Part shown: positions 8,447 through 28,615 of the stretch, one piece after another
How positions within the stretch are numbered: the first letter of the stretch is position 1
Layout: every line of letters starts with the position of its first letter
Assembly: GCF_016812035.1 (NCBI RefSeq)
Contig: NZ_CP069178.1
Span: 806,001 to 870,000 of the forward strand
Direction of reading: 5' to 3'
DNA length: 64,000 bases
Origin: Bulleidia sp. zg-1006
Lineage (GTDB): Bacteria > Bacillota_I > Bacilli_A > Erysipelotrichales > Erysipelotrichaceae
Made by a program: the position numbers and the translations under genes
Notes under the pieces: model-generated
What the model saw: the letters and a program-made list of their open reading frames with translations, nothing else
Told to the model about the DNA's origin: nothing
Database searches by the model: none

Positions 8447-9115
8447 TTATCTTTCCATCTCTTTTTCTTTTGTTGGAATTGGTTGTTTTTGAGAGTTATA
8501 TTTTTCTTTAGCCTTTTTCTTCAATTCAGCTAAATGCAATCTTTTTTTGTCCAACTTCTTTTTCCTTTTATTGGCTAATCTTTCCATTTCATCACAAATT
8601 CGTTTCACCTTGCTTACATCTTTAGAGTCAAAGGTAAATTTTAAAACATCCTTGCTTTTTAACATAACGACCGGTTTATTGTCTTCATCTTCGATAAGGT
8701 TACAAAAGTCTTGAACAAAACGCTTTTCTCGGTCAGTTAAATGAGTTATATCTTCATTTGCCTTTTCTAAAATATCCCCATAATCACTAGGCAATTTTGA
8801 AACAAGTAAATTGACCCCACTTTTTTTACAAAGTTTGAGAAAATCTTTGATTTCTATTTTTTGGTCTAAGGTTAATTCTGTTTCGGCTTGACGATGTGTT
8901 TCCTCTCCTAATTGATCCCATACAAAAGCGTTTTTCATCATCCTTCCTTGATGTTTTTTAAGGGCTGATTGCAGGCTTTTATCATCGTATACTCTCCAAT
9001 CGTGTATCCCTTTTCGTATTGCTGAAAAGATAGTGCCTGCTCCTGAATAGCCAATTCTAAGTAAATTCAATAATTTGTCTTTCGCTTCAAAATTATCATT
9101 TGCATCGAATATCAT
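8447..9115 (-). CDS. PcfB-like (DUF3801-type) T4SS accessory protein with shared tail
   Basis: 222 residues, soluble. IKDFLKLCKKSGVNLLVSKL and VVMLKSKDVLKFTFDSKDVSKV fit the pattern I know from DUF3801/PcfB proteins of Gram-positive conjugative elements, which act with the VirD4 coupling protein. The match is by memory of the pattern and is moderate. The basic C-terminus (KKKLDKKRLHLAELKKKAKEKY) merges into the element-wide tail ending IPTKEKEMER. This tail is also found on hexapeptide-repeat proteins and on the 27812-28615 protein, although their main bodies are unrelated. Hairpins lie on both sides. Confidence 0.55.
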   Translation of the reverse strand: MIFDANDNFEAKDKLLNLLRIGYSGAGTIFSAIRKGIHDWRVYDDKSLQSALKKHQGRMMKNAFVWDQLGEETHRQAETELTLDQKIEIKDFLKLCKKSGVNLLVSKLPSDYGDILEKANEDITHLTDREKRFVQDFCNLIEDEDNKPVVMLKSKDVLKFTFDSKDVSKVKRICDEMERLANKRKKKLDKKRLHLAELKKKAKEKYNSQKQPIPTKEKEMER

Positions 9116-9143
9116 TTTTCTTTTCTCCTTTCTACAAAAAAGG

Positions 9144-9157
9144 AGGACATCTGTCCT
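9144..9157 (-). terminator. Intergenic hairpin AGGACA-TC-TGTCCT
   Basis: 6-bp palindrome then T-run and GTAGAAAGGAG before the ATG at 9115. Confidence 0.65.
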
Positions 9158-9166
9158 TCTTTTAAT

Positions 9167-9424
9167 CTAATCTGTTTCTCCATAATGGTTTAGCAATTTC
9201 TTTTTTCTGAAATAGTCATGTGTTAATAAAGCAATCATAACCAAAATGAAATTAAATGTGTTTCTACCAATGATGTTTTGTATATAATAGAAAACACTGC
9301 TTTTATCAAAAACTTGGTACATTTTAATTATTTGGTTTATCATCATCAAAACTAAAATACCTATACAAATATAAATATTTTTTTTGGAAACTCTAACACG
9401 ACTTTGTTCTTCATTTTTTTTCAT
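9167..9424 (-). CDS. Small membrane protein after VirB4
   Basis: 85 residues with two hydrophobic segments (about residues 16-34, IYICIGILVLMMINQII, and 55-70, FNFILVMIALLTH) and basic ends. It overlaps the VirB4 stop by 4 bases (ATGA), so it is translationally coupled to VirB4. No family is recognised. A small channel or scaffold subunit of the T4SS is a reasonable guess from context. Confidence 0.65.
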   Translation of the reverse strand: MKKNEEQSRVRVSKKNIYICIGILVLMMINQIIKMYQVFDKSSVFYYIQNIIGRNTFNFILVMIALLTHDYFRKKKLLNHYGETD

Positions 9425-11823
9425 AGAAAATTCCTATCTAGTGCCACCCTTTCTTCTGGCGTAGATGTCATACAATTGTAAATCCGTGTTCCTTTTGGAA
9501 TGTTGTCAACAAAAGGGATAACCGTTTTATTTCCTACATAAATCAGTCCTTTTCCTATTTCTTTGTTAGACAAAAAACTTAGTTGTTCATCAGGAACATT
9601 CAATAAATTACCTAAAATTATTTTATCTTCTTCAGATTGGGCTAACATTACAATAAATTCAGAGTTTGACAACATGGTACTGGCGGTTTCTGACTTCGAT
9701 AAGTCCGTTATATTTTGCGTAATTCCTGTAATCAGTGCTCCATACTTTCTAGCTCGCTTGAACAATTCAAATAGGAAATTAGCTGTGTATTCATTTTTGA
9801 ACAACAAATAAATTTCATCAATCCATATCCACGTCCGTATACCCTTTGAATGGTTATAATTGATTCTATCCCAAAGATTTTCAAGAATAACTAGCATAGC
9901 TAAAGGCTGAATGGTGGATTCAGTTTCAGAAATATTGAATACCGTAAAACGATTGCTTAAATTAATATTTGTAAATCCAGAAAATAAATCGTATGTACCA
10001 TTAACATACATTTCTAATCCTGTAGCTAATCGTTGAGCATAGATAATATCCATATTTTCTAATGCTAGCAATAAATCTTTTAAGGTTGGTGTTTCCAGTG
10101 GTTTATCGGTTTTCAAAGATAGAAAATATTTAGTGTACATTTCTCTTACCGCTCTATCAATGACCGATTTTTCTTCAGCAGACATTTCTTGAGCAAATAT
10201 TTGAGCAATGAATGTTTGACAAAAATCGGCTTTATTTTTAACAAAACCCTCTAGGGTTCTTTTTTGGTCATATTCTAAAGGATTAATATGAATACCAGCT
10301 TTACTATCAATATTAATAATTGATCCACCCAATTCTCTGGCTAAATATTGATATTCATTCTCAGGGTCTATAACAATTAATTCATCATTATCGTTTTTAC
10401 ACATGACTTGAAACATTTCTCGTTTACAAGCCATTGATTTTCCAGACCCAGATTGTCCAAAATACCAAGCGTTTGAGTTCTTCATCTTCTTTCTATCAAT
10501 GGTAATTAGATTTTTACTAATGGAATTAACTCCATAATAAAGGCTATTCATTTTTTCTTGCATTTCCTGCACTGAAAAAGGAACAAAAATCGAACATCCG
10601 GCACTGGTTAATGTTCTATTTCTTTTTGGTACACGATAGCCTATGGGAAAACAAGCATTCATTCCTTCTTCTTGTTGACAACGTAAAATACGAATACCAA
10701 CCACTCTTTTATTAGCTATACCTTTAATTTTAGTTGTTAAGGTTTCTAATTCTTCTCTGCTTTCGCAATTTAAGAAAATTAGAAATTGTGATTCAAACAA
10801 ACGCTGATTATTTTTCTGTAAATCTTGCAACAAGTCTTGAGCTTCTTTTTCTGCTTCTTTCAAATTTAAAGGAACGTTTAACTCACCATCATAGCCACTT
10901 AAATTTCCTTTTTGTTGATAATTCGCAATCTCACTTTCGATATTCATGAGTTTGTTTTTCACCATGGCTATATCGTTACCTCTAGGAATTGCTCGCATAT
11001 TCAAAGCTATTGTTAAATTCTGTTTTATTTTACTTAATTGATTAAGTAACTCGTCGGATAATTCTGTTGAATAATCACTAATGTACAAAATTCTACAATA
11101 CCGTCCATTAACGATAAAATGGTCTTCTTTAAACGCTAATTGTTCAGGACTAATAGCATCTTTGGATGTCAAATAACGTGATATTTTATTGTAATTAAAC
11201 GTATATTTAACATTTGGAAACAAGGCTCTATGAATGATTTTCAATCTATTAGACCCATCCATTGGAGTTGCCTTAACACCATATTTACTCATCAATCGAC
11301 AATATTCATCACTTTGATTTATCGCAAACCGATTCGCCTTTTCAATACTATCTTCCATAAAGGTGAATGTTAGATATTTGTCGGTAACAATACGATTATT
11401 ACCAATCGCCAACTTCTGCTTCAATATATCATTCCATTCATTTCTTAATAATTGATATTTATCTTCTTTCTTTTCCAGGAAAAGACAATTTTGGAACTCC
11501 TCGTCATCGACTACATGATTTTGTAATATCAACTGTAGATTATATTCATTGCCCATCATATTTAGAGTTTCCATCCAATTATTAAAGATTTTTATTTGGT
11601 CTTCTTGCGTAGCTATCTGATAGTTAATATCTTCAAATTTAATGGTGGCGGAAAATGTACCGTTGTCATCTAAAATACATAATCCATTTTTCAACATTAA
11701 ATCATAGTAAATTGAATTTTGGATGGAACGTACTTTCTTTAAGGCTTTTTTAGTGTTCTCCAACTTTTTTATACCATCGTATTTCTCTTCTAAGTTTCGC
11801 TCTTTGTTTCTTTGAAATAACAT
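9421..11823 (-). CDS. VirB4/PrgJ-family conjugation ATPase
   Basis: 800 residues, the normal length. Walker A GQSGSGKS lies near residue 457, with FGQSGSGKSMACK typical of VirB4, and Walker B TWIWIDEIYLLF near residue 669. Motifs between and after them (DPENEYQYLARELGG, NISETES, ITQNITDLSKSE) are family-typical. It energises assembly and substrate passage of the type IV secretion channel at the inner face of the membrane. The start at 11823 has GAAAGGAAAGG upstream and overlaps the prgI gene by 74 bases in another frame. Confidence 0.95.
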   Translation of the reverse strand: MLFQRNKERNLEEKYDGIKKLENTKKALKKVRSIQNSIYYDLMLKNGLCILDDNGTFSATIKFEDINYQIATQEDQIKIFNNWMETLNMMGNEYNLQLILQNHVVDDEEFQNCLFLEKKEDKYQLLRNEWNDILKQKLAIGNNRIVTDKYLTFTFMEDSIEKANRFAINQSDEYCRLMSKYGVKATPMDGSNRLKIIHRALFPNVKYTFNYNKISRYLTSKDAISPEQLAFKEDHFIVNGRYCRILYISDYSTELSDELLNQLSKIKQNLTIALNMRAIPRGNDIAMVKNKLMNIESEIANYQQKGNLSGYDGELNVPLNLKEAEKEAQDLLQDLQKNNQRLFESQFLIFLNCESREELETLTTKIKGIANKRVVGIRILRCQQEEGMNACFPIGYRVPKRNRTLTSAGCSIFVPFSVQEMQEKMNSLYYGVNSISKNLITIDRKKMKNSNAWYFGQSGSGKSMACKREMFQVMCKNDNDELIVIDPENEYQYLARELGGSIINIDSKAGIHINPLEYDQKRTLEGFVKNKADFCQTFIAQIFAQEMSAEEKSVIDRAVREMYTKYFLSLKTDKPLETPTLKDLLLALENMDIIYAQRLATGLEMYVNGTYDLFSGFTNINLSNRFTVFNISETESTIQPLAMLVILENLWDRINYNHSKGIRTWIWIDEIYLLFKNEYTANFLFELFKRARKYGALITGITQNITDLSKSETASTMLSNSEFIVMLAQSEEDKIILGNLLNVPDEQLSFLSNKEIGKGLIYVGNKTVIPFVDNIPKGTRIYNCMTSTPEERVALDRNFL

Positions 11824-12142
11824 ATCCTTTCCTTTCTAATCCTTCTCCATCTTCATACATTAATGGTGTTCTAGTTTTGCGGTAATAATTTAACAAGATT
11901 TTAAAATATTCATCTGAGGGTAATCCTTCATAAGTGCAAAAACCTAACCATAGCGGTACAATAACCACCGCTACAATTAACAAAAACAGTATTGATTCTG
12001 GTAAAAAGAATTTTCCAAAATAATATATTGGAATGGCTAATAGGCAGCCAACCAGAAAAAACAATACTTGTTTGTCGGTCAAACCTAAAATGAATTTTTT
12101 TCGATAGGTTTGTATTTCCGCTGGAATTGGTTGAAATAACAT
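11750..12142 (-). CDS. PrgI-family T4SS membrane protein (VirB3-like position)
   Basis: 130 residues. N-terminus MLFQPIPAEIQTYRKKFILGLTDKQ is typical of PrgI proteins, followed by two hydrophobic segments (VLFFLVGCLLAIPIYYF and ILFLLIVAVVIVPLWLGF) and a basic C-terminal part. PrgI genes regularly precede VirB4 in Gram-positive conjugative elements, as here. The 74-base overlap with the VirB4 gene is long and suggests tight translational coupling. RBS GAAGGAGAAAAAT lies directly after the stop of the preceding gene. Confidence 0.88.
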   Translation of the reverse strand: MLFQPIPAEIQTYRKKFILGLTDKQVLFFLVGCLLAIPIYYFGKFFLPESILFLLIVAVVIVPLWLGFCTYEGLPSDEYFKILLNYYRKTRTPLMYEDGEGLERKGYVISKKQRAKLRREIRWYKKVGEH

Positions 12143-12155
12143 ATTTTTCTCCTTC

Positions 12156-12971
12156 TTATCTTTCTATTTGTTTTTCTTTTTTAGGAATATAATTTTCCTT
12201 TTGGCAATATTCTTCTTTAGCCGTTGATTTTAAATCATTTAGCTTTAATGATGAAGCCTCATATTCCTTTCTCTCCTTTATCAAAGGATTCTCTGTAAAC
12301 ACAGTATTATCAGCAACCACGGCATCTCCTTCAACCAGACCGAACTCTTGTACCACGGCGTAATCTTTAACCAAAGCATTATCTTTAACCACCGCATAAT
12401 TTCTGACTACAGCATTCCCTTTGACCCAAGCGTTATCTCTGACTTTCGCATTCCCTTCAACCAAAGCATTATCTTTGACCACGGCATCATCTTTGACCCA
12501 AGCATCGCCACTAACCACTGCGTTTCCATAGACCAAAGCGTTTTCACTAACCCTTGCGTTTCCATAGACCTTTGTATATCCACTAACCCTAGCGTTTCCA
12601 TAGACCACCGCATTCCCACCGACCCACGCACTGCCTGTAACCACAGCGTCATCTCCAACCCAAGCATTATCTTTGACCCAAGCCTTACCTGTAACCACAG
12701 CATGCCCTTTAATCATTGCGTTTCCTGTAACTTCGGCATAATTTCTGACCACGGCATCATCTTCAACCACGGCATTCCCTGTAACCACCGCTTCACCAAA
12801 GACCCAAGCCTTCCCTGTTTGGCTTAAATTTTCTTCCTTTTCTACAAAACCACCTAAATCCCCAGTCTTTACATCTCCAAAAGAAGTCAAAGCTTTGATT
12901 CTGTATACTTTCCTTCCCCCAGCCATCTTAGTTTCGGATGTTAATTCATATTTTTTCTTTTGTTCTTCCAT
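12156..12971 (-). CDS. Hexapeptide-repeat (YdcK-like) paralogue B, longest repeat array
   Basis: The start at 12971 (MEEQKKKYELT) has GGAAAGGAAGAAAGT before it. The longer frame from 13022 runs through a hairpin and is rejected. After the common head come about 29 hexapeptides, against 12-20 in the other copies. The first nine repeats match paralogue A almost exactly. The middle block (WVGGNA, VVYGNA, RVSGYT, KVYGNA, RVSENA) is unique. The tail is SLKLNDLKSTAKEEY, IPKKEKQIER. The 18-base periodicity is visible in the DNA. It is probably a soluble beta-helix; the binding partner is unknown. Its insertion between the 13022-13390 gene and prgI within the core T4SS operon is unusual. Confidence 0.78.
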   Translation of the reverse strand: MEEQKKKYELTSETKMAGGRKVYRIKALTSFGDVKTGDLGGFVEKEENLSQTGKAWVFGEAVVTGNAVVEDDAVVRNYAEVTGNAMIKGHAVVTGKAWVKDNAWVGDDAVVTGSAWVGGNAVVYGNARVSGYTKVYGNARVSENALVYGNAVVSGDAWVKDDAVVKDNALVEGNAKVRDNAWVKGNAVVRNYAVVKDNALVKDYAVVQEFGLVEGDAVVADNTVFTENPLIKERKEYEASSLKLNDLKSTAKEEYCQKENYIPKKEKQIER

Positions 12972-12995
12972 ACTTTCTTCCTTTCCACAAAAAGA

Positions 12996-13009
12996 AGGAC
13001 ATCTGTCCT
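12996..13009 (-). terminator. Intergenic hairpin AGGACA-TC-TGTCCT
   Basis: 6-bp palindrome then TTCTTTTTG and the RBS of the 12156-12971 gene. Confidence 0.65.
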
Positions 13010-13021
13010 TCTTATCTTTCA

Positions 13022-13390
13022 TTAACTCGCTTGATCCATGTGACTATACAACGCAATATTTTGTATCATTGTATCCCATATTCTTTTCTCTAAATTTCCT
13101 AATGTTAATTGGAAATGTTCTAGGGCTTTGTATTCGTTAAATTTATTGAATAACAAAAAATGATACCGTTCTTTGGCATTATTTGCTAAATAAACATCAT
13201 TTAATTCTTCTAAAAACTTAATTTTGTCATAGGTAATTAGTTTTCCATTCAATTTGTTTTTACAACAAATTAAGAGGTAATGTTGTGGTTTATGAATCCA
13301 TAAAGTTTGGTCTACAACATCTAATTTGTAGGTATTCATCAATTCCTTTACCTCTTTATTTTCAACAACCTCAATTTTCACATATAACAC
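13022..13390 (-). CDS. Hypothetical protein of T4SS operon
   Basis: 122 residues, no membrane segment and no signal peptide. The sequence around YKLDVVDQTLWIHKPQHYLLICCKNKLNGK suggests a beta-rich N-terminal half and a helical C-terminal half. No family recognised. It lies between the VirB6-like gene, 6 bases away, and paralogue B, so it is part of the core transfer operon. Confidence 0.6.
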   Translation of the reverse strand: MLYVKIEVVENKEVKELMNTYKLDVVDQTLWIHKPQHYLLICCKNKLNGKLITYDKIKFLEELNDVYLANNAKERYHFLLFNKFNEYKALEHFQLTLGNLEKRIWDTMIQNIALYSHMDQAS

Positions 13391-13396
13391 CCCTTT

Positions 13397-14239
13397 CTAT
13401 ACACCTAACAGGCTTTTTGCCCATCCACCAGTTTGAAACATTGACATGACTAACAAAATCTGACCGCCTATGATAATCCACATTCCATTAATATCACTTG
13501 GATAATCTATAACATTGATATATTGATAATAAACAAGAATACATACTGAAATGAGTATGACTTGCAAGGCTAAAGCCACTAATTTCTTAATCCAACGTTT
13601 AAAAATATCATTGTATTCTTTTGAAATAATGGTTGAAGAAATGATTGAACCTAAGGCTATATGGACGTAAATTTCAATATTACGTATTTGAATAACAATC
13701 TTTGCTAATACCTTCAAAATATCTGATCCTAATTTCATGATGGTCACTAACAAATAATTGATTAATTTATCACCTAAGCCTTTATTCCACCCATTATAGG
13801 TTTGTTCGATTTTATCCATGAATGTTTGCATTTTACTGGTGTCTTGACCAACCGTGACCAACGCTTTCCCCTTTTCTAAAGTTGTCACCATATTTTTACT
13901 AGTTGCAAAAATTAAATTAATAATATCTGCCACATTGTCGGCTATTAATTTAGCGATGGCTAATTTCACTAAAATCCACGTGATTTCATACATAGCCTCA
14001 TCTTGTTGCATATCTTTTTTCTTTAACTGTTCCATCAATTCTAATAGAAAAAACAAGATTAACAACGTCCATGCGATTGGTTTTAACAGTTCTGAGATAC
14101 TTTGTGTTGTTTTCCACATACCACCACCTAAAAATTCTTTAGGGGTAACTTTTAATTCATCCATTAAGCCCTCAAAGGCTTTAGTAATATCCAACAACAC
14201 GCCAACAATGGTTGTTCCAAAATTGTCTAAAAAATCCAT
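13397..14239 (-). CDS. VirB6/TrbL-like polytopic membrane protein (PrgH-like position)
   Basis: 280 residues with several hydrophobic segments: about 58-70 (PIAWTLLILFFLLEL), 90-115 (ITWILVKLAIAKLIADNVADIINLIF), 190-205, 218-240 (LVALALQVILISVCILVYY) and 250-270 (MWIIIGGQILLVMSMF). The arrangement resembles VirB6-like proteins that line the channel in Gram-positive T4SS. The call rests on topology and gene order, between the small pilin-like protein and prgI-virB4, not on sequence motifs. RBS AGAAAGGTTC precedes the ATG at 14239. Confidence 0.72.
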   Translation of the reverse strand: MDFLDNFGTTIVGVLLDITKAFEGLMDELKVTPKEFLGGGMWKTTQSISELLKPIAWTLLILFFLLELMEQLKKKDMQQDEAMYEITWILVKLAIAKLIADNVADIINLIFATSKNMVTTLEKGKALVTVGQDTSKMQTFMDKIEQTYNGWNKGLGDKLINYLLVTIMKLGSDILKVLAKIVIQIRNIEIYVHIALGSIISSTIISKEYNDIFKRWIKKLVALALQVILISVCILVYYQYINVIDYPSDINGMWIIIGGQILLVMSMFQTGGWAKSLLGV

Positions 14240-14250
14240 ATAGAACCTTT

Positions 14251-14538: not shown

Positions 14539-14573
14539 TTTTTACCTCTTTCTTCTTTCTATTTTTTTGAGTA

Positions 14574-14679: not shown

Positions 14680-14684
14680 CTAAT

Positions 14685-16715
14685 CTAAAGTTGTACTTCT
14701 AAATTAGAAATTGCATTCATTTTTGTATTAACATAACCCTGACCATCAAATAATTGGTCTATTTCTTCTATTAGCTCCATAATTCCTTTCTTTTCCGCAA
14801 ATTCTTTGAATTTCGATGTATCAAATTCATTCTTCTTATCAAAATCTGCTGTATCAACAATATTCTCATGTTGGAATAAATCGAATTTCTTATCTCTGAA
14901 GATGTGTTGCCCACGAATATGAATTAAACATTCATCCGTTGGCAATCTTCCTATTTCATCCGGTGATAACAATGCTCGACTAACAATCTGATTAGACTTA
15001 GAATAGCTACCCCCACTAGATGAATAGCTTTCATTTATGCTTAGATGGTCAACGGTTGTATTACCGATAATTTTCGATAATCTTTCCAGTGTTGAATATT
15101 CTTTTCCCCCCAAAAATAAAGTAACATCACAATTTCCTTCAATGGTTTCCCATGTTTCTTTATACAAGTTTTTTAGTTGAGCTAGATTTTGTAAGATACA
15201 GTCAACACTGATTTCTCTTGAACGCATAGTTGCAATTTTCTTTTCAAAATCATTAATTTTAGAAATATTTGCGAATTCGTCTAAACAAAATCGTGTATGA
15301 ATAGGTAGCGTACCCCCAACTCGTGCATCCGCTTGTCTATATAACAAGTCAAATAATTGTTGATATATCATGGTTGCTAAAAAATTGAAACTACTATCAC
15401 TATCACTAATAGAAACAAACAGCACTGTCTTTTGAAGTGCAGGAGCCGTTTCCTCATGATTGCTACAGTTAATGTATTTACCATCTTCACAAATACAATC
15501 CTCACCATTCACATCTAAATAGACTAAATGACCATCGCTATCTTGACATTGTTGATGATTATCATCATATTTTGGTTGAATATGTGGATTTCCAATACTT
15601 TCTAAATTCAATTCATCGTACTTTAATAATTCGGCAAGTTGTGGCAGATTAAATACTGCCATACGTACACCAATGGAAATCAAAATGCTTTTAGCCGTTT
15701 TTCCAGCTGCTTTTTTGTAGATGTTATACTGTCTTAACGCTAAAAATTCATAGGATATTTTTGATAATTTTCTTAGTTTTAATTGGTTTTTAACGTATTC
15801 TTCTACATGATTAAATATTAAATCCAACTGGGATTGTTGATTTTCATCTTCTTCACTTGCACTCGCCATATCAATTAAATCCATTAATTCGTTCATGTTT
15901 CTCAAAGGGTCATCTTCACTTGTTGTAGCGAATATCAAAAAGATACAAGCTGTCAACAAGGCAATTTCGGCTTTTTCAAAAAAGCCATCTCCCCCACTGG
16001 TTTGTACTTCTTTATTTGTACTTGAAATTAGGTTATTAACAAATTTCAAAATATCCTCTGCACTATAAATATAATTGAAGGGATTGTAGTGCATTGATTT
16101 TGAAAATTCGATTAAATTCAAGTATTTCATATCATATCCTGCTTTGTAGAATACATTTCCTACTTCCTTACATAAGGTGTCTTTCGGGTCGGTAATAATA
16201 TAATTACAAGCTAAATTTAAAATGTTTGGCTTGACATGGAAACGTGTTTTACCGGACCCCGAACCACCAATCGTTAAGGTGTTATTATTCAAAAATGTTT
16301 TTCTCGTATCCATGGATACTTGTATATTTTGAGAATAAATCACATTATATTTTTCATCTTCTTCGTTTTTTAACGGGCTTCCCTCTTTTTCAATACGTCC
16401 ATAGCGTGCTGACCCATGTTCTTCTTTAGGACGATAATTCTTTCGATTCATTTCGATAATGGCTAAACCTAACCATGCTAAAGCCACAAATGAAGTACCT
16501 AAAATAATTGCAAGAGGATGAAATGATACCTCAATCCTTGTCAAAATTGATGGTAACAACTGCAAGGTTGCATTTATAATTGAAAATAGCAAAAATGTTC
16601 CCCTATTCAATTCTTCTAAAATCAATAAACCATACCTATTCCCTAAAATAAACAACAAGCCAAATATAAGAATTAATATCGGATTAACTGGATTGTTTTT
16701 AAAATAATCTTTCAT
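14685..16715 (-). CDS. VirD4/TraG/PcfC-family type IV coupling protein
   Basis: 676 residues. Two N-terminal hydrophobic segments (about 11-30 ILILIFGLLFILGNRYGLLI and 67-88) anchor it. Walker A IGGSGSGKTRFHVKPN lies near residue 153 and Walker B FCLDEFANI near residue 478. ITDPKDTL and the TraG-like IQNLAQLK are also present. It links the relaxase-DNA complex to the channel and selects substrates. RBS AGAAAGGAGAAGGA precedes the ATG at 16715, after a hairpin of the GGTGGTCA type. It is the likely reader of any C-terminal secretion signal on element proteins. Confidence 0.95.
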   Translation of the reverse strand: MKDYFKNNPVNPILILIFGLLFILGNRYGLLILEELNRGTFLLFSIINATLQLLPSILTRIEVSFHPLAIILGTSFVALAWLGLAIIEMNRKNYRPKEEHGSARYGRIEKEGSPLKNEEDEKYNVIYSQNIQVSMDTRKTFLNNNTLTIGGSGSGKTRFHVKPNILNLACNYIITDPKDTLCKEVGNVFYKAGYDMKYLNLIEFSKSMHYNPFNYIYSAEDILKFVNNLISSTNKEVQTSGGDGFFEKAEIALLTACIFLIFATTSEDDPLRNMNELMDLIDMASASEEDENQQSQLDLIFNHVEEYVKNQLKLRKLSKISYEFLALRQYNIYKKAAGKTAKSILISIGVRMAVFNLPQLAELLKYDELNLESIGNPHIQPKYDDNHQQCQDSDGHLVYLDVNGEDCICEDGKYINCSNHEETAPALQKTVLFVSISDSDSSFNFLATMIYQQLFDLLYRQADARVGGTLPIHTRFCLDEFANISKINDFEKKIATMRSREISVDCILQNLAQLKNLYKETWETIEGNCDVTLFLGGKEYSTLERLSKIIGNTTVDHLSINESYSSSGGSYSKSNQIVSRALLSPDEIGRLPTDECLIHIRGQHIFRDKKFDLFQHENIVDTADFDKKNEFDTSKFKEFAEKKGIMELIEEIDQLFDGQGYVNTKMNAISNLEVQL

Positions 16716-16752: not shown

Positions 16753-16935
16753 CTATCTTTCAATTTCTTTTTCTTTTTTAGGAATATAATTTTCCTTTCG
16801 GCTATATTCTTTTTTAGCCGTTTCTTTTAAATAATTTAGATTTAATGATTTTTCATCTTTTGAATATCCTTTACTTGTTGCATAAAGATAACTCCTTTTT
16901 GCCCTTTCCACTTTTAAAATATTGTCATTTTCACG
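16753..16935 (-). pseudogene. Orphan C-terminal tail and upstream gene remnant
   Basis: An open frame of 60 codons without a convincing start ends in the shared tail SLNLNYLKETAKKEYSRK, IPKKEKEIER, stop, hairpin, RBS. The bases at about 16862-16900 are strikingly similar to the 3' end of the primase-like gene (24480-24515), but there they are read in a different frame. This looks like the scar of a lost or recombined gene of which only the 3' cassette end remains. A short translated protein from GTG or TTG cannot be excluded. Confidence 0.6.
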
Positions 16936-16947
16936 AAAAGGAAAAAG

Positions 16948-16961
16948 AGGACAGATGTCCT
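16948..16961 (-). terminator. Intergenic hairpin AGGACA-GA-TGTCCT
   Basis: 6-bp palindrome after the adhesin gene, with TTTTT following on the minus strand. Confidence 0.65.
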
Positions 16962-16981
16962 CTTTTCTCTTGTCCTAATTT

Positions 16982-20425: not shown

Positions 20426-20498
20426 TTATCTTTCAATCTCTTTATCCTTGTTTCCACTAATATTCTAACAAATAGCCTATGTACATTCCATCCTTATT
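20426..20498 (-). pseudogene. Orphan 3' ends: copy of the 21717 gene end and a short tail
   Basis: Bases 20457-20498 encode NKDGMYIGYLLEY-stop, the last 13 residues of the 21717-22646 protein (NKDGIYIGYLLEY) with one change, and overlap the stop of paralogue C. Bases 20426-20456 continue with NKDKEIER-stop, the end of the shared tail, followed directly by the lipoprotein RBS. No gene body belongs to either piece. Confidence 0.6.
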
Positions 20499-20877
20499 TT
20501 TTTTGAGGCTGTCCTTCAATAGTTGCATTTCCTTCAACCCTTGCGGCACCACCAACCCAAGCGTTACCTTTAACCACTACTGCACCACAAACCATTGCGA
20601 AATCACTAACCACAGCGTTTCCACAGACCGTTGCGGCACCAGTAACCCATGCGCTTTCTTCAACCACGGCGTTATCATTAACTACTGCATTATCTTTGAC
20701 CACGGCATCATCTTTGACCCATGCGTTATCTGTTTGGCTTAAATTTTCTTCCTTTTCTACAAAACCACCTAAATCCCCAGCTTTTACATCTCCAAAAGAA
20801 GTCAAAGCTTTGATTCTGTATACTTTAGTTCCCTCAACCATTTTAGTTTCTGTTGTTAATTCGTATTTTTTGTTCAT
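20494..20877 (-). CDS. Hexapeptide-repeat (YdcK-like) paralogue C, short form
   Basis: The start at 20877 (MNKKYELT) has ATGGAGGATAAAACC upstream. 127 residues: common head (YRIKALTSFGDVKAGDLGGFV), about 12 hexapeptides and the end IEGQPQKK without the shared tail. Ten consecutive repeats (VVKDDA through VVKGNA-WVG) are the same as in paralogue D, including the rare WVTGAA-TVCGNA-VVSDFA-MVCGAV block. It looks like a version shortened by recombination, because a foreign 3' end (NKDGMYIGYLLEY) begins exactly at its stop codon. Confidence 0.75.
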   Translation of the reverse strand: MNKKYELTTETKMVEGTKVYRIKALTSFGDVKAGDLGGFVEKEENLSQTDNAWVKDDAVVKDNAVVNDNAVVEESAWVTGAATVCGNAVVSDFAMVCGAVVVKGNAWVGGAARVEGNATIEGQPQKK

Positions 20878-20939
20878 GGTTTTATCCTCCATAATATTAT
20901 ATAATTCTTTCATAATTACCGAGATTACTCCCTTGTGGT

Positions 20940-21050
20940 GTTGTGTTGCATTCTGCATTATTACGGGCTTGTTACCCGTCTACGGCTACATTACAGCACC
21001 CCGGACGGCGAACCGTGCCGGGGCTTTGCGGTAAAAGTGGCTGGTTTAGA
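20940..21050. other. GC-rich island with two hairpins (possible second oriT, RNA or recombination site)
   Basis: About 100 bases clearly richer in GC than all surroundings. Hairpins: ACGGG/CCCGT at 20963-20979, and CCCCGG-A-CGG/CCG-TG-CCGGGG with a CGAA loop at 20999-21023. No open frame explains it. The composition suggests import from a higher-GC donor. The function is undecided. Confidence 0.5.
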
Positions 21051-21348: not shown

Positions 21349-21376
21349 ATTGACCTCTCCTCTATCTCTTTATTCT

Positions 21377-21661: not shown

Positions 21662-21716
21662 ATTTTTACTCCTTTTTCTCTCTTTTTTTAGTTAATACTT
21701 CTACTTCTTGTCTTCA

Positions 21717-22646: not shown

Positions 22647-22703
22647 ACTTTATTCCACCCCCTTTCCTTTCTGCAAGTAAATCGGACTAGCTTTCTAGGA
22701 TAA

Positions 22704-23153
22704 TCATTCATCCATCCATTCCTCGAAATCAAAACTTTCTTCAACTACAGTATCATCAGGTTCATCCTTTTCTTCTTGTTTATCTTCATCATCTTTATTT
22801 CCATCTTCCTCTTTATTTTCAAGCTTAGTTTCTAATTTGGTTTTCATGCTAGGAATGAACTTGTAGCTATCGACCGTAACGGTAAAGACTGTCATATTTT
22901 TGTCATTTTTCATATAGGTAGACATCCTTCCTGTTCCTCTAACTAGCAATAAATCCCCTTTCTTAATAAAGTGATGTAAATTTTCTGCTGTTTTCCCATA
23001 GGCTACCATTCGATAAAAACTTGTCATTGTATTGTTATTTTTATCTTTTCCATCCTTTTCAGCAATACTAAAATTCACCACATGATTTCCATTTGCAGTT
23101 TGTTCCAACTGCATATCTTGACATACACGTCCAAAAATCGTAATCCAACTCAT
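22704..23153 (-). CDS. ssb: Single-stranded DNA-binding protein (PrgE-like position)
   Basis: 149 residues. N-terminal OB-fold typical of SSB: ITIFGRVCQDMQLEQTANGNHVVNFSIAE, FYRMVAYGKTAENLHHFIKKGDLLLVRG. Long acidic linker. The C-terminus EESFDFEEWMDE is acidic but lacks the usual DDDIPF tip, so recruitment of host replication proteins may differ. pCF10 carries an SSB (PrgE) in its T4SS operon, and the place here is similar. It could protect transferred or replicating single strands. Confidence 0.88.
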   Translation of the reverse strand: MSWITIFGRVCQDMQLEQTANGNHVVNFSIAEKDGKDKNNNTMTSFYRMVAYGKTAENLHHFIKKGDLLLVRGTGRMSTYMKNDKNMTVFTVTVDSYKFIPSMKTKLETKLENKEEDGNKDDEDKQEEKDEPDDTVVEESFDFEEWMDE

Positions 23154-23157
23154 TTTT

Positions 23158-23346
23158 TTACCTCTTTCTTTCTATTCTTTTTGTGATTTCACTGTATAAG
23201 TTAAACGTTCCTTGTTTCCTTTTTTGACTTGAATGAATTTCAAGTCCGTGTTTTGTACATATAACAAATAAAAATCCAATTGTTATTAGCAAAATCAAAG
23301 CGTAAGGAAGTTTATATGAACAAATAAACATTTTTGGAATTTTCAT
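23158..23346 (-). CDS. Small membrane protein
   Basis: 62 residues from the ATG at 23346 (MKIPKMF); a TTG at 23376 would add 10. One hydrophobic segment (YALILLITIGFLFVICT), then a basic tail ending EITKRIERKR, which resembles the end of the shared KEKEIER tail. No family recognised. A well-initiated 11-codon frame lies just before it. Confidence 0.5.
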   Translation of the reverse strand: MKIPKMFICSYKLPYALILLITIGFLFVICTKHGLEIHSSQKRKQGTFNLYSEITKRIERKR

Positions 23347-23353
23347 TAGCACT

Positions 23354-23389
23354 TTAATTATCGTTAAATAACTCAATCTTAATTTTCAT
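23354..23389 (-). CDS. Possible 11-residue leader peptide
   Basis: MKIKIELFNDN with a good RBS (CGGAAAGAGAAT). It starts right after structured RNA copy C and ends 8 bases before the ATG of the small membrane protein. It may couple translation to that gene. Confidence 0.3.
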   Translation of the reverse strand: MKIKIELFNDN

Positions 23390-23409
23390 ATTCTCTTTCC
23401 GTCCCCTCA

Positions 23410-23520
23410 CACTTTCTATAAGCTGCTTTTTATAAACGAAAACGAAAAGGTGGAGTTTCGTTAGAAAACTACCTTGTAGTTGGAGTGGAAAAGCAGAATA
23501 CAAAAGTTGAATTTATTACT
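23410..23520 (-). ncRNA. Structured RNA element, copy C
   Basis: On the minus strand: outer stem CUGCUUUU/AAAAGCAG and apical stem UUUC-UAAC-GAAA. The first apical pair is U-A here against A-U in copies A and D and C-G in copy B. It begins 14 bases after the stop of the small pilin-like gene and ends before the leader of the ssb unit. Confidence 0.75.
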
Positions 23521-23533
23521 TAAACATCTGCTA

Positions 23534-23728
23534 TTAAAATAAAATTTCAATAACTGCAATGACCATGCTTGACATAATGCATCGTTTGATACCTTTTTGT
23601 TTGGATACACCATGGTGATCATGAAGTCCTTGAGCTATTTGCATAATCCCATAAAGGAAATTAATACCCCAGCCAATCATAACAATTTTCGTAAAAACCT
23701 GTGTGACTTCACCTAAATCACTAAACAT
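23534..23728 (-). CDS. Small two-helix membrane protein (TrbC/Maff2-like)
   Basis: 64 residues, two hydrophobic segments (about 15-32 IVMIGWGINFLYGIMQIA and 50-63). Similar in plan to the 14251-14538 protein. Candidate small channel or pilin-like subunit. RBS AAAGGAGAAGGA precedes the ATG. Confidence 0.6.
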   Translation of the reverse strand: MFSDLGEVTQVFTKIVMIGWGINFLYGIMQIAQGLHDHHGVSKQKGIKRCIMSSMVIAVIEILF

Positions 23729-23746
23729 TCCTTCTCCTTTCTAAAA

Positions 23747-23764
23747 AGGTGGTCATTTGACCAC
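23747..23764 (-). terminator. Intergenic hairpin GGTGGTCA-TT-TGACCACC
   Basis: 8-bp perfect stem then TTTTT and the RBS of the 23534-23728 gene. It lies directly after the stop of paralogue D. Confidence 0.7.
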
Positions 23765-23765
23765 C

Positions 23766-24404
23766 CTATCTTTCTATTTGTTTTTCTTTTTTAGGAATAT
23801 AATTTTCCTTTTGGCTATATTCTTTTTTAGCCGTTGATTTTAAATCATTTAGCTTTAATGATGAAGCCTCATATTCCTTTTTCAAAGGATTCTCTGTAAC
23901 CACAGCATTATCTTCAACCACGGCATCTCCTTCAAGCCTTGCGGCACCACCAACCCAAGCATTATCTTTGACCCAAGCCTTACCTGTAACCAAAGCATTC
24001 CCTGTAACCAAAGCATTCCCTGTAACCACAGCGTCATCTCCAACCCAAGCGTTACCTTTAACCACTACTGCACCACAAACCATTGCGAAATCACTAACCA
24101 CAGCGTTTCCACAGACCGTTGCGGCACCAGTAACCCATGCGCTTTCTTCAACCACGGCGTTATCATTAACTACTGCATTATCTTTAACCACGGCATCATC
24201 TTTGACCACTGCGTTTCCATAGACCTTTGCATTACCTTTGACCCATGCGTTATCTGTTTGACTTAAATTTCTTTCGTTTTGAATATAGCCGCCGTATTCT
24301 CCAGCCTTTACATCTCCAAAATCAATTAAAGCTTTGATTCTGTATACTTTAGTTCCCTCAACCATCTTAGTTTCTGTTGTTAATTCATATTTTTTCTTTT
24401 TCAT
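23766..24404 (-). CDS. Hexapeptide-repeat (YdcK-like) paralogue D
   Basis: The start at 24404 (MKKKKYELT) has AGAAAGGAGAAGGA upstream; the longer frame begins inside a hairpin. 212 residues: head with GDVKAGEYGGYIQNERNLSQ (the GGYIQ form, as in paralogue E), about 20 hexapeptides and the tail SLKLNDLKSTAKKEY, IPKKEKQIER. The array is a mosaic: the first half is shared with C, later repeats (VVTGNA-LVTGNA-LVTGKA-WVKDNA) resemble A/B, and the C-terminal 45 residues equal those of B. A direct 18-base duplication (LVTGNA twice) is visible at 23988-24025. Confidence 0.78.
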   Translation of the reverse strand: MKKKKYELTTETKMVEGTKVYRIKALIDFGDVKAGEYGGYIQNERNLSQTDNAWVKGNAKVYGNAVVKDDAVVKDNAVVNDNAVVEESAWVTGAATVCGNAVVSDFAMVCGAVVVKGNAWVGDDAVVTGNALVTGNALVTGKAWVKDNAWVGGAARLEGDAVVEDNAVVTENPLKKEYEASSLKLNDLKSTAKKEYSQKENYIPKKEKQIER

Positions 24405-24427
24405 TCCTTCTCCTTTCTGCAAAAAAG

Positions 24428-24441
24428 AGGACATCTGTCCT
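24428..24441 (-). terminator. Intergenic hairpin AGGACA-TC-TGTCCT
   Basis: 6-bp palindrome between the primase-like gene and paralogue D, followed by TTTTTT and GCAGAAAGGAG. Confidence 0.65.
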
Positions 24442-24443
24442 TC

Positions 24444-25769
24444 TTATCGTTCGATTTCTTCAATCTCTTTCGTTTTCTTTTTATCCTTTACTTGTTGCAT
24501 AAAGATAACTCCTTTTTGCCTGTCTTCGTTCCAATCTTTATATTGACTTTTAATTCGTTTGATTGGATATTTTCCCTCGTATTTCTCCATCATTTTTTCA
24601 GCAAATAAATCGCCTTTATCATCATTATCAACTGCTAAAACAAGACTTGTGTATTTTGCCTCGTTGTCTTGTAGAATGTTTTCCAACACCTTTTTCTTTA
24701 AACCACCTAAGGCTAAATACGCATATTTATCCATCTGATTTCTTTCTTTCATGTAGGACATGAAGGATAACATATCAATTACAGCTTCAAATATGATTAA
24801 TGGTTTTTCTTCACTTGAAATACCGTGATAGCCATCTTTTTTATTAATTGAATTTAGATGTTTATCTAATAACCATCCGTTTCCAGCGTTATAGGGGCTT
24901 TCATATTTTTGAATAGTGGCTTGAGAATTAGAAGAACAAATACGGCTCATAATAGAATCAATATTTCCCTTTTTATCTAAATTAGTGAAGGAAACATATC
25001 TATTTTGATAGGTGATTCCATCTTCTAATGTAACTGTTCGGTTACTTTGATGGATAAATCCTTTAGCCAATAAGTCAAATACTAAATCCGCATTAATCTT
25101 TCTTTCTTTAATTAAATAAGCAATCGCATTTTTATGAGTATTTTGGAATTGTTTGGTTTCTAAATTTTTTAAAACAATTTGTTTTAAATGTTTATATATT
25201 TCATTGTATTTTTTTGGATATTGAAATTTAGTTTTATCCTTTCCATACTCTTTATAAATATGTTCCCACGTTATTGCTTTTTCTGTTTCATATAGGTGCT
25301 GTAATTTTGGATTGTTTTCTGATTCTTCACGAATAATTTTCAACAAGTTGGTAATTGGCAAAAAAACTTCAACTTTCATTTCCTCATATTTTTTCTCTAT
25401 GTTTTCTTGTGAATGATATTGCCTTTGTTCTTCTACATCATCCATTGTCTGTTCTTCTAAATGAGCTACTTGTTCAAAGCAATAATTAAATGCTTTTTTA
25501 AATGACATTTTGATTTCTGGCATGACTTGTAAAAATTTGACAATATCTCCACCCTCTTGCGTTGAATATCGATAAAAAGAATTTGTTCTTGAGAAAATAA
25601 TGACACTATCATGTTTTGGTATTGTGTAATTTTTTTTCGATTCTGAATATCCCCTTGTAATTGGTGTTAATTGATAAAAACGCTGTGCTACTTCTACAAA
25701 GTCAAGTTTTTCCCTTATTAATTGCATTCGACTGGGGGTAAATTTATACACTTTTTCTTTAGCCATCAT
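24444..25769 (-). CDS. TOPRIM-domain primase-like protein (DUF3991/PcfD-like)
   Basis: 441 residues. The N-terminal part (VEVAQRFYQLTPITRGYSE and IIFSRTNSFYRYSTQEGGDIVKFL) resembles DUF3991 proteins that precede TOPRIM in mobile-element primases. The TOPRIM motifs are IIFEAVIDMLSF near residue 330 (catalytic Glu) and LVLAVDNDDKGDLFAEK near 385 (D-x-D). It could synthesise primers on transferred single strands or act in element replication; catalysis is inferred. It ends KKTKEIEEIER, a short form of the shared tail. It overlaps the 25759-26001 gene by 11 bases. Confidence 0.78.
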   Translation of the reverse strand: MMAKEKVYKFTPSRMQLIREKLDFVEVAQRFYQLTPITRGYSESKKNYTIPKHDSVIIFSRTNSFYRYSTQEGGDIVKFLQVMPEIKMSFKKAFNYCFEQVAHLEEQTMDDVEEQRQYHSQENIEKKYEEMKVEVFLPITNLLKIIREESENNPKLQHLYETEKAITWEHIYKEYGKDKTKFQYPKKYNEIYKHLKQIVLKNLETKQFQNTHKNAIAYLIKERKINADLVFDLLAKGFIHQSNRTVTLEDGITYQNRYVSFTNLDKKGNIDSIMSRICSSNSQATIQKYESPYNAGNGWLLDKHLNSINKKDGYHGISSEEKPLIIFEAVIDMLSFMSYMKERNQMDKYAYLALGGLKKKVLENILQDNEAKYTSLVLAVDNDDKGDLFAEKMMEKYEGKYPIKRIKSQYKDWNEDRQKGVIFMQQVKDKKKTKEIEEIER

Positions 25770-26001
25770 AAGCCCTTTCTAAGCGTTTTGATTGTTCAAA
25801 AATAATCAACCAATCTTCTTGATCTAATCGTTTTACTTTATTGAGTAAATATTTTCCAAAATAATAGCTAAAACGTTGTTTATTTTTTTCATTTTGCATA
25901 AAGTATTGAATATACTCAAACAACGATTCTAAAGATTGAATATCGTATTTTCTAATTAATTCTTGGATGAACAAAATATCGTTATCGCTTAATAATTTCA
26001 T
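25759..26001 (-). CDS. Hypothetical helical protein
   Basis: 80 residues, predicted mostly helical (DILFIQELIRKYDIQSLESLFEYIQYFM), soluble. It overlaps the primase-like gene, so the two are translationally coupled and probably act together. Family not recognised. Confidence 0.6.
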   Translation of the reverse strand: MKLLSDNDILFIQELIRKYDIQSLESLFEYIQYFMQNEKNKQRFSYYFGKYLLNKVKRLDQEDWLIIFEQSKRLERAYDG

Positions 26002-26025
26002 TCCTTCTCCTTTCTACAAAAAAAG

Positions 26026-26039
26026 AGGACATCTGTCCT
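26026..26039 (-). terminator. Intergenic hairpin AGGACA-TC-TGTCCT
   Basis: 6-bp palindrome then seven T residues and GTAGAAAGGAGAAGGA before the ATG at 26001. Confidence 0.65.
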
Positions 26040-26042
26040 TCT

Positions 26043-26213
26043 TTAAATAAAATTTTTAATTTTGTTTTCAGATTTATTTTCTTGTTTTGGTTTTAGGAAA
26101 TACTTTTTACGATCATTTTTATAACATTGAAAATAACCTAAACCATAAGCAACTACCATCGGCAATATAAATGTGAAAACACCTTTGACTACATCTAAAA
26201 CTGTGTTATTCAT
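26043..26213 (-). CDS. Short membrane protein after relaxase
   Basis: 56 residues: MNNTVLDVVKGVFTFILPMVV begins a single hydrophobic segment, followed by a Lys-rich cytoplasmic tail ending NKIKNFI. It starts 2 bases after the relaxase stop, with GAGGAATTGG as RBS, so it is very probably translated. No family recognised; perhaps a membrane anchor for the relaxosome. Confidence 0.6.
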   Translation of the reverse strand: MNNTVLDVVKGVFTFILPMVVAYGLGYFQCYKNDRKKYFLKPKQENKSENKIKNFI

Positions 26214-26215
26214 AA

Positions 26216-27766
26216 TTAAATATCCAATTCCTCTTTCTTCTTTTCTAACGTTGTCTTTCCATAAACTTCTTGCAGCTTCTTTTCAATTTCTTTACATCCT
26301 TTTTTAATTTCACCTAATTTATCCGTTATAGTACGTTTTTGTTGCACCAAAGGTTCTCGATGTGTTTTCGCCCATATAGCCATTTCTTCTTGATTCATTT
26401 CTAACATTCCTATCGCAACATCTTTCATCATCCTTTTCAAAATGGCATCCACATGATTTAGTTCTTTACTGATTTTTGAAAAATCTTTTTTTATCTGTTC
26501 TTCTTCAATACTAAGTTCTTTTAATTTTTTTTCTAAATCAGGGGATTGGTAAATCAAAGAAATTCTATTGAAACGTCTTTGCAGGTTTTCTTGCATATAT
26601 AACGCATACTTTTGATACCCTGTCATATTCGCATATTCACTTTCAGAATAACGAAAACTAATCTTGTTATCTTTAAGAAATGCTTTGGTGATGTCATCCT
26701 GTACCTTTTGTTCACCATTTTGATATTCTTTAATTCGATTCAAGATTTCCACATCTGTTTTTTTGTTAGTAATCCTCTTTTTTAATCCTTCGAGGCTATA
26801 GTTTTCATCTTTTAGACGATTCAATCTTAAATATCTTTTCCCTTTAGGTAATTTAACGGATATTTGGCGGTTGTTTTTTTGCGTCTTATCTTCAACCAGC
26901 CCCTTTAAATAATCAAAGCTAATCTTTCTTGTCCCATTTTCATCTTCTAATTGAATTACTTTATTAGGGTCTTTTATACTAAATTCCGCTATTTGAATAC
27001 CTTTTTTTGTGGTTGAAATAACCACATCATTTCTATCGACTGTAACGATTGATTTAGTGTAGGGAACTCGAAAAGCAAACGTATTTTCGTCTACTTTGCG
27101 AAACAATTTTTGATGAATTGTAAAAGCTAAATCATTTTTTCCCTTAATATCTCCCTTAACATCATAGCCTACTGCCTGAAGGTAGTTAAATAAATCCTCT
27201 ACATTGCTAATTCTCGGCAATATTGCATCGATTGTTTTCATGAGTATTTCTCGGTCGGATAAACGATTATTCAACCAACTATAATAATGTTTAGCTTCAT
27301 AATCTTTTGTTTCTTCCAAGAAAGGTAATCCCATTTGTTCACATACCCGATCGGATATTTCTTTTAGTTTGGGTAAGTCTTTTTTGTAATTCATCCGCAA
27401 GGTTTTCCCTGTAATATTAGAAATTGAATTAACAACAATATGAGCATGAATGTGGGTTTTGTCGGTATGAACAGCGATACAATGGTCATATTCACCATTA
27501 AAAGCTTGTTTCATATATTCCTCGGCAGCTTCATAACACTCCTCGGGCGAAACAGTGTCAGGTGGAAAACTCATAATCATATGAAATCCTGTTATTTTGT
27601 TTTTCTTCAAATTTGATTGTTTACTTCGCCATTGTAAGCCAACAATAGACGTATCTATGGTGGATGTTGTTGATGTCAAAAAATCTTCAACTTTATCTGG
27701 GTTTAGGATGTAATCAATCGTACTTTGAACATTACCATGTAAATGTTTGATTTTTAGTGTTGCCAC
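26216..27766 (-). CDS. MobP/VirD2-type relaxase
   Basis: The GTG at 27766 is preferred (RBS AGAAAGGGTGG); the longer TTG frame would start in a hairpin. 516 residues. Relaxase/mobilisation domain with the histidine motif HTDKTHIHAHIVVNS at about residues 100-114 and the probable catalytic Tyr19 (TIDYIL). The C-terminal half is long, charged and coiled-coil-like (LEKKLKELSIEEEQIKKDF). It nicks oriT and leads the strand through the channel. The neighbours (ribbon-helix-helix protein, candidate oriT 2 kb upstream, coupling protein downstream) fit. Confidence 0.92.
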   Translation of the reverse strand: MATLKIKHLHGNVQSTIDYILNPDKVEDFLTSTTSTIDTSIVGLQWRSKQSNLKKNKITGFHMIMSFPPDTVSPEECYEAAEEYMKQAFNGEYDHCIAVHTDKTHIHAHIVVNSISNITGKTLRMNYKKDLPKLKEISDRVCEQMGLPFLEETKDYEAKHYYSWLNNRLSDREILMKTIDAILPRISNVEDLFNYLQAVGYDVKGDIKGKNDLAFTIHQKLFRKVDENTFAFRVPYTKSIVTVDRNDVVISTTKKGIQIAEFSIKDPNKVIQLEDENGTRKISFDYLKGLVEDKTQKNNRQISVKLPKGKRYLRLNRLKDENYSLEGLKKRITNKKTDVEILNRIKEYQNGEQKVQDDITKAFLKDNKISFRYSESEYANMTGYQKYALYMQENLQRRFNRISLIYQSPDLEKKLKELSIEEEQIKKDFSKISKELNHVDAILKRMMKDVAIGMLEMNQEEMAIWAKTHREPLVQQKRTITDKLGEIKKGCKEIEKKLQEVYGKTTLEKKKEELDI

Positions 27767-27795
27767 AAGTTTTCCACCCTTTCTGTTCGATAAGA

Positions 27796-27809
27796 AGGAC
27801 AACTGTCCT
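27796..27809 (-). terminator. Intergenic hairpin AGGACA-AC-TGTCCT
   Basis: 6-bp palindrome between the 27812-28615 stop and the relaxase start. Confidence 0.65.
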
Positions 27810-27811
27810 TT

Positions 27812-28615
27812 TTATCTTTCAATTTCTTTTTCTTTTTTAGGAATAGGACTTTCTTTTTGTTTGTATTCTTTTTTCGTTATTTCTTTTAGTTTGCTTAATT
27901 TTAAACTTTCCTTCTTAGTCTTAGCACGTTTACTTCCATCTTCAGCTTCGAGTTGTTCTTCTTTTTGAATACGATCTGCTTTGCGGATGCCTTTATTTTC
28001 TTTTGCTAATTTTGAGATTTCTAAGGCTTCATCATACATGCGGATTAGCTTATCACCCTTGATTGTTACCTTATCAATTTTTTCATATTCTCCATTTTCT
28101 TTTTTTCTACCAATAAAATGAATATTAACATCTCTTTCTTTGAGCATATAGAAGTAACAACCTTTTATATAGAATTTATTAGTAACGTCCTTTCCGGTTT
28201 CAACGTTATACAACGTAAATTTCTGATTCGGGAATTTCGGTTTTTCCAAAATGATATTTTCGGCAATTTCCGTCTTGACTGGATATGTCGTCCCATCTGA
28301 ACGTCTGCCAACTAAATTCAATCCGATTCTTGATGCTGGTAAATTAACATAGCCAACACGTTGATTTAAGTTAATATTGTTTTCATCATATCCAAAATCT
28401 AAATTTCTAAAGTTATCTTTTGGAATGAAAACTTCAGCCATCATCATTCTTCTATTCGTTTCAATATTATTACGGTTTTTTAATTCATAATTTTTCACTT
28501 CTTTAATCATTCCTACCGTAAAATGGAATGGAGCAACTGGTTTATTCGGGTCATCAATAGCCTTTATTAATGATTTTTCCTCTTGCACTTGTTCTTGTTT
28601 TTTAATTTCACTCAT
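27812..28615 (-). CDS. Hypothetical relaxosome-region protein with shared tail
   Basis: 267 residues, soluble. The body contains FHFTVGMIKEVKNYELKN, RRMMMAEVFIPKDNF and beta-rich stretches; family not recognised. The C-terminal 60 residues are highly charged and end in the element-wide tail SLKLSKLKEITKKEYKQK, IPKKEKEIER, the same tail as on hexapeptide proteins and the PcfB-like protein. It is placed between the ribbon-helix-helix gene and the relaxase, so a relaxosome or transfer-substrate role is likely. Confidence 0.6.
   Translation of the reverse strand: MSEIKKQEQVQEEKSLIKAIDDPNKPVAPFHFTVGMIKEVKNYELKNRNNIETNRRMMMAEVFIPKDNFRNLDFGYDENNINLNQRVGYVNLPASRIGLNLVGRRSDGTTYPVKTEIAENIILEKPKFPNQKFTLYNVETGKDVTNKFYIKGCYFYMLKERDVNIHFIGRKKENGEYEKIDKVTIKGDKLIRMYDEALEISKLAKENKGIRKADRIQKEEQLEAEDGSKRAKTKKESLKLSKLKEITKKEYKQKESPIPKKEKEIER

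Follow-up and report, generated by a model that had tools for sequence, protein, structure and literature searches.

The substrates of the Agrobacterium VirB/D4 system reportedly carry short, positively charged C-terminal signals for type IV secretion systems (T4SSs), as described by Vergunst in 2005. Here we describe a tail in a conjugative element of Bulleidia sp. zg-1006 that is likewise short, C-terminal, net basic and found on unrelated proteins. In contrast to the Agrobacterium signals it is longer, opens with an amphipathic block, closes in an acidic-hydrophobic motif, and belongs to another T4SS class. The window, that is the whole stretch of DNA analysed, has 64,000 bases (806001-870000 of the 1.545 Mb single-contig genome). 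Its first 37 kb are the conjugative element, with genes for VirD4, VirB4, a VirB6-like protein, PrgI, a CHAP protein, a relaxase, a NikA-like protein, a primase, SSB, ParA and ParB. We propose that the tail is a bipartite C-terminal T4SS recruitment signal, a reading which the sequence comparisons make fairly probable.

Another C-terminal and bipartite signal is found in alphaproteobacteria, where the BID domain is combined with a positively charged tail (PMC6509941). According to the sections of that paper available, the BID signal occurs on relaxases and also on toxins unrelated to them, Fic proteins among these, and the coupling protein has been proposed as its reader. BID is globular and comprises about 100 residues, whereas the Bacillota tail comprises about 32-45, and no BID family was among the Pfam matches of the window tail proteins. 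F-type T4SSs carry ParA, ParB, SSB, PsiA and PsiB as protein cargo, with ParB and SSB described as proven (PMC8406263, in the sections consulted). Maintenance proteins are co-transferred there, and in the Bacillota elements compared here some SSB and ParB proteins have block-2-like ends. The F-type system is Gram-negative, however, and the sections consulted of PMC8406263 describe no common C-terminal motif. Iyer et al. (2017) proposed that the polyvalent proteins encoded by conjugative elements accompany the transferred DNA (PMC5512222, in part). The ArdC, YodL, LPD and MPTase carriers reported below fall in this class, for which the same sections describe no common C-terminal signal. A 2025 review calls the recruitment evidence limited and names no Gram-positive signal in the parts searched (PMC12857230). 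No description of the tail or of such a Gram-positive T4SS signal was found in the open-access literature, including the accessible parts of PMC8406263, PMC5512222, PMC6509941, PMC12857230 and PMC7117660; most subscription papers were not covered.

The tail and its carriers in the window element

A tail of 32 residues was found at the extreme C-terminus of five minus-strand proteins (Table 1), namely the hexapeptide-solenoid proteins hexA, hexB and hexD, a PcfB-like protein, and a 267-residue protein without family (the 27812 protein). Open reading frame (ORF) translations, DNA ends, an alignment and a pattern scan agree on this. They bear out an earlier note on this DNA, which had seen the tail on the same five proteins in an interval beginning at 8447; hexA lies just outside it. 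Six aligned tails have 12 invariant columns (L5, L7, L10, K11, K15, Y18, I25, K28, E29, K30, E33 and R34). Block 1 reads SLxLxxLKxx[AT]KKEY in the window, and block 2 ends in KEKEIER and relatives. The charge of the tails is about +4 by hand count.

The bodies of these proteins had been taken to be unrelated. This held for the solenoid, the PcfB-like and the 27812 bodies, but not within the solenoids, as hexA, hexB and hexD (with matches to Pfam Hexapep or B_solenoid_ydck) are paralogues. The independent body families with a full tail are three, to which the primase end is added. For the primase a short version had been noted correctly; only the last residues (KEIEEIER) are in common with the tail. 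Two other hexapeptide ORFs of the window, hexC (20494-20958) and 31890-32591, lack the tail.

The PcfB-like protein gave no PF12687 match at E<=2 and no match among plasmids, and two distant relatives were found within the genomes of the family. Aligned with these two against PcfB alignments by hhalign, it reached E-values of 6e-4 and 5e-4 at probabilities of only 29 and 31%. For the 27812 protein there was no Pfam or NCBIfam match, and no relative in the genome-contig or viral-contig collections or in 271 other genomes of the family. A search of its own genome returned five further matches, which cover the tail and its approach. Its single-sequence structure model was unusable (pLDDT 36.9).

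Table 1. Coordinates of tails, tail-related ends, comparison genes and hairpins (window positions unless a prefix is given)
Feature	Position	Strand	Remark
Tail of hexapeptide-solenoid hexA	7454-7552	-	gene 7454-8437; SSLNLNDLKSAAKKEYSRKDSHISNKEKEMER, stop
Tail of PcfB-like protein	8447-8545	-	gene 8447-9115; KRLHLAELKKKAKEKYNSQKQPIPTKEKEMER, stop; PcfB assignment weak
Tail of hexB	12156-12254	-	gene 12156-13022
Tail of hexD	23766-23864	-	gene 23766-24434
Tail of 27812 protein	27812-27910	-	gene 27812-28615
Orphan full tail on ORF fragment	16753-16851	-	directly upstream of VirD4
Orphan second half, short frame	28719-28742	-	IPKKEKELER, stop; upstream of 27812-28615
Tail first half without second half	3376-3417	-	near C-terminus of 301-residue protein 3343-4248
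Full tail on solenoid protein of second element	G000:C1:204661-204759		outside the window
Primase/Toprim gene	24444-25769	-	terminal block only, EIEEIER, stop, coded by 24444-24467
Relaxase gene (Pfam Relaxase)	26216-27802	-	end KKKEELDI, stop, coded by 26216-26245
VirD4-type coupling protein	14685-16715	-	domains T4SS-DNA_transf, TraG-D_C
VirB4-type ATPase, without tail	9421-11823	-	domain match and terminal-block score
VirB6/TrbL-like channel protein, without tail	13397-14239	-	domain match and terminal-block score
CHAP-domain cell-wall hydrolase, without tail	4893-6812	-	domain match and terminal-block score
Hairpin AGGACAnnTGTCCT, nine sites	2307-2322, 4279-4294, 8430-8445, 9143-9158, 12995-13010, 16947-16962, 24427-24442, 26025-26040, 27795-27810		intergenic

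The six-tail profile was run against the whole 1.55 Mb genome and detected seven full copies (E 5e-16 to 5e-21). The window element accounts for six; the seventh, at 204.7 kb, belongs to a second T4SS element, equipped with a VirB4-like ATPase, a MobL relaxase and a VirD4 of its own. All seven are thus confined to the two T4SS elements, a point that the earlier note had suggested examining by a profile search, and an equal presence on chromosomal non-conjugative proteins, which would have spoken against it, was not seen in this genome. Across the family's other 271 genomes no match was better than an E-value of 0.01, which is chance level; matches at E<=0.1 occurred in 12 of 272 genomes, this one counted.

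Solenoids of the hexA/B/D body type were found in 64 records from phages and 14 from plasmids, and a search with hexD in the viral-contig collection gave no match. We compared the ends of 11 solenoid homologues: four from phages (Sfi19 orf229, phiRM10 gp34, Bp8p-C gp209 and Javan318), five ORFs on an S. salivarius plasmid, one from the same genome (1168845) and the window ORF at 31890. The tail is missing from all 11. The four phage solenoids, 1168845 and the ORF at 31890 close instead with a related cap, GCFxG[ST]xxE[FL]. Since the homologues end otherwise, the tail is regarded as an added module. In a single-sequence AlphaFold2 model, hexD has a confidently predicted solenoid (residues 60-182) and a disordered tail (residues 183-222).

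Terminal-block scores of relaxases and other proteins

The last ten residues were scored with a profile anchored at the C-terminus. Its training set, 71 PcfB and block-1 proteins, came from other elements and contained no window sequence and no relaxase; L143|1963 and L160|2882 had been removed by eye. Scored were ORFs of at least 100 residues (relaxases above 250) with distinct last ten residues, which covered 52 of 60 relaxase-like ORFs. A score of at least 4 was reached by 17 of the 52 relaxases, compared with 5.9% of the shuffled relaxase ends. Clustering at 60% body identity gives 28 groups of relaxases, ten of which have a positive member. Among the channel and transfer proteins the same score was reached by 2/73 VirD4, 1/44 VirB4, 0/21 VirB6 and 0/17 CHAP ends, and elsewhere by 3/198 control-locus ORFs and 71/1697 other ORFs (shuffles 1.7%). 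The relaxase is the one protein certain to cross a conjugative T4SS. The kinship of its terminus with the tail is therefore the main link between the tail and export.

Within the window element, the top six of 30 ORFs were hexA (9.8), the PcfB-like protein (8.8), the 27812 protein (8.8), hexB (8.4), the primase (5.4) and the relaxase (5.0), followed by VirD4 at 2.9; hexD was counted with hexB, as their last ten residues are identical. The full tails of the window scored 8.4-9.8, with P between 0.0015 and 0.012 relative to shuffled versions of the ten terminal residues. A charged and predicted disordered extension might also serve in degradation or solubility, or be a generic coiled tail without a specific partner. 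The scores above shuffles of equal composition and the confinement to cargo-type genes argue against this, and we rate it as very improbable.

Two more proteins of T4SS elements have ends of this kind. An SSB (L101:8156-8497) ends in KEHDNKEMER, where an acidic DDDLPF-type end is usual, and a ParB (L096:9438-10364) ends in KKRQKNMER.

Block 1 in other elements of the Bacillota

Within the class, 24 of 395 genomes matched PF12687 (PcfB, DUF3801), and a scan with PcfB from other species added 80 further loci. Block 1 ([RK]PS[IV]xxxLxx[FAI]K or a close form) occurs on 83 of 88 PcfB-family ORFs, in 66 of the 83 exactly 22 residues from the end. Its S, V, L and K are invariant in nine long PcfB proteins. 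The general PcfB tail has two parts, PS[IV]xxxLxxxK and a basic end closing in [DE]x[DE][RLV]. Frequent ends such as RNKRKELER and VKNKDRGIER are near the KEKEIER of the window. PcfB is the most constant instance of the tail, and in those annotated plasmids that were compared its gene is a neighbour of virD4; the PcfB-like protein of the window, in contrast, does not match the PF12687 model. The constancy on PcfB and the position next to virD4 would also fit a donor-side assembly tag, which gathers proteins at the relaxosome, PcfB or the coupling protein without export. In the precedents described in the consulted sections of PMC5512222, however, ArdC-type and primase carriers work on recipient DNA, an argument from precedent only. 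We consider such a donor-side tag unlikely.

A block-1 profile of 12 columns was trained on PcfB alone and then applied to other proteins; many Tn1549-like loci are near copies, so the counts in this study are not independent. In PcfB-centred loci a score of at least 12 was found for 10/1642 C-termini (two or more of these appear to be spurious), 0/199 control-locus C-termini, 3/5523 shuffled tails and 4/6940 internal windows. The ArdC sample consisted of 40 regions chosen among 83 matches listed. There, 27 of 607 C-termini scored at least 12, compared with 3/1821 shuffles and 5/3030 internal windows; at a score of at least 16 the numbers were 20/607, 0/1821 and 0/3030. The carriers fall into eight body clusters unrelated by BLAST, one of which is spurious (L160|2882, a spurious ORF). 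Their Pfam matches include ArdC-N/MPTase, DUF3846-YodL, LPD34, LPD1, DUF6674 and TTRAP-like, and looser versions of the tail were seen by eye on a Toprim and an ArdC-like protein of L034. On pMG2200, block 1 stands on 3 of 16 examined proteins, none of them a channel protein: PcfB, a YodL/ArdC protein and a 314-residue protein. The other 13 are without it. The tail was also absent from two annotated phage ArdC/primase homologues and from two more phage contigs.

We tentatively suggest, as an idea somewhat short of an even chance, that Bacillota elements with PcfB and VirD4 have a common bipartite export signal at the C-terminus. By means of it they might inject PcfB, ArdC-type antirestriction proteins, primases, Fic toxins, some SSB and ParB proteins and beta-solenoids. 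The window element would have spread its own version over several genes.

Several results weigh against a recruitment signal. Block 1 of the window is shifted by one residue at the middle leucine relative to the general block and scores low, and none of the full-tail window proteins is in the best 140 rows of the PcfB-trained profile. Local alignment to 42 general tails gave z values of 2.4 for the PcfB-like tail, 0.8 for hexD and 1.2 for the 27812 protein. Shuffles were at least as close in 6/300, 62/300 and 40/300 cases, respectively, and only the PcfB-like tail is closer to the general tails than its shuffles are. In relaxases, block 1 does not rise above their own internal windows, and relaxases as block-1 carriers were mostly rejected by this comparison. 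The PcfB tail of the same element ranked first for 48 of 1230 ORFs, with 47 expected. This test rejects an element-specific dialect with its own receptor as a general rule; in the window, and as judged by eye also in pCF10, such a dialect does apply. pSK41 has no clear tail. In pCF10 and a relative, PcfB, PcfD and Fic have a different motif, [KT]F[ED]ERL, which was seen by eye only and which the profiles miss. The earlier note had proposed an address tag read by VirD4. The sequence data support this idea in part. The restriction to T4SS elements, the absence from phage homologues and channel proteins, and the comparable tail on PcfB, ArdC/YodL proteins and, in its last residues, many relaxases of other elements speak for it, and the weak match of window block 1 to the general block speaks against it.

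One more point on the negative side is a Shine-Dalgarno-like motif in the last 33 bases of 22 of 27 general block-1 carriers, by which the ribosome site of the next gene could impose a K/E/R-rich end. For the window this explanation is already contradicted: the motif occurs in 0 of 7 genes, as the ribosome sites there lie after the stop codon. Moreover, 42 of 60 VirB4 genes have the motif, yet only one of the 44 distinct VirB4 ends reached the terminal-block score of 4, and block 1 would be left unexplained. Of the tail as a whole we find this account barely credible.

Two observations concern ends like that of PcfD. A Fic-family protein of an OG1RF plasmid of this type (L275:10949-11704) has the end KNKFEERLVEAKEK..., near that of PcfD of the same plasmid, NKFEERLLNAKKK, and is a possible interbacterial T4SS effector. 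A record labelled Enterococcus phage Efs 1-1-1 (L270, OR846606.1) encodes a 719-residue protein with the C-terminus of pCF10 PcfD. Given this PcfD-type end, the record is probably a plasmid contig and not a phage.

Origin of the copies and proposed role

Among the tails of the hex paralogues, the orphan and the 204 kb copy, 0-2 synonymous codon differences were counted, and judged by their codons these are recent copies. The tails of hexD, the PcfB-like protein and the 27812 protein have 14-22 of 32 residues in common, with 5-7 synonymous codon changes. Since tails of different families are 4-7 synonymous codons apart, they do not stem from one recent DNA copy. On these counts, duplication explains the hex-family tails, and an older kinship at the protein level those on the other bodies.

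The orphan tail at 16753-16851 is preceded by a copy of the primase-gene 3' end (window about 16850-16900), and another such copy precedes the solenoid gene of the second element (L037 about 13950-14090). Apparently the solenoid gene spreads as a cassette that takes along primase sequence and hairpins on its flanks. These orphan tails and copied flanks, together with the recent hex-family copies, would suit an explanation in which the 3' end was copied between genes by duplication or recombination of a cassette and the peptide has no function. Against it stand the 12 residues that are fixed although the PcfB-like, 27812 and hexD tails have diverged in their codons, the recurrence of a comparable tail on unrelated bodies in distant elements, and the retention of the tail by PcfB with its four invariant residues. 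A functionless by-product is, in our estimate, distinctly improbable.

One protein of the second element (L037:14895-16838; G000:C1 about 204.9-206.8 kb) joins a hexapeptide solenoid to ArdC-N and a zincin peptidase; the junction contains a degraded stretch that resembles the tail. The palindromic hairpin AGGACAnnTGTCCT of the window element is followed by a T run at most of its sites. With one mismatch allowed, 18 strand matches were found versus 0.06 expected. It stands after tailed and untailed genes alike and is a possible attenuator, processing or regulator site. Hairpin and tail as a single unit were rejected because the AGGACAgaTGTCCT hairpin also follows untailed genes.

The proposed recruitment signal would act in two parts. 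Block 1 would provide a short amphipathic stretch, and block 2 a basic linker followed by an acidic-hydrophobic-acidic-basic end. As a flexible extension from a folded body, the tail would dock on VirD4, or on PcfB as the adaptor of VirD4. In the window, the VirD4 upstream of which the orphan tail lies is the proposed receptor. Docking would bring the cargo to the channel, through which it would probably pass into the recipient together with the DNA; both the identity of the docking partner and translocation itself are inferred.

The choice of cargo by Gram-positive conjugation systems is poorly known. Being recognisable in sequence, the tail would provide a list of cargo candidates for many elements of a large, resistance-carrying group. 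It would also suggest a role for PcfB and permit a direct reporter test.

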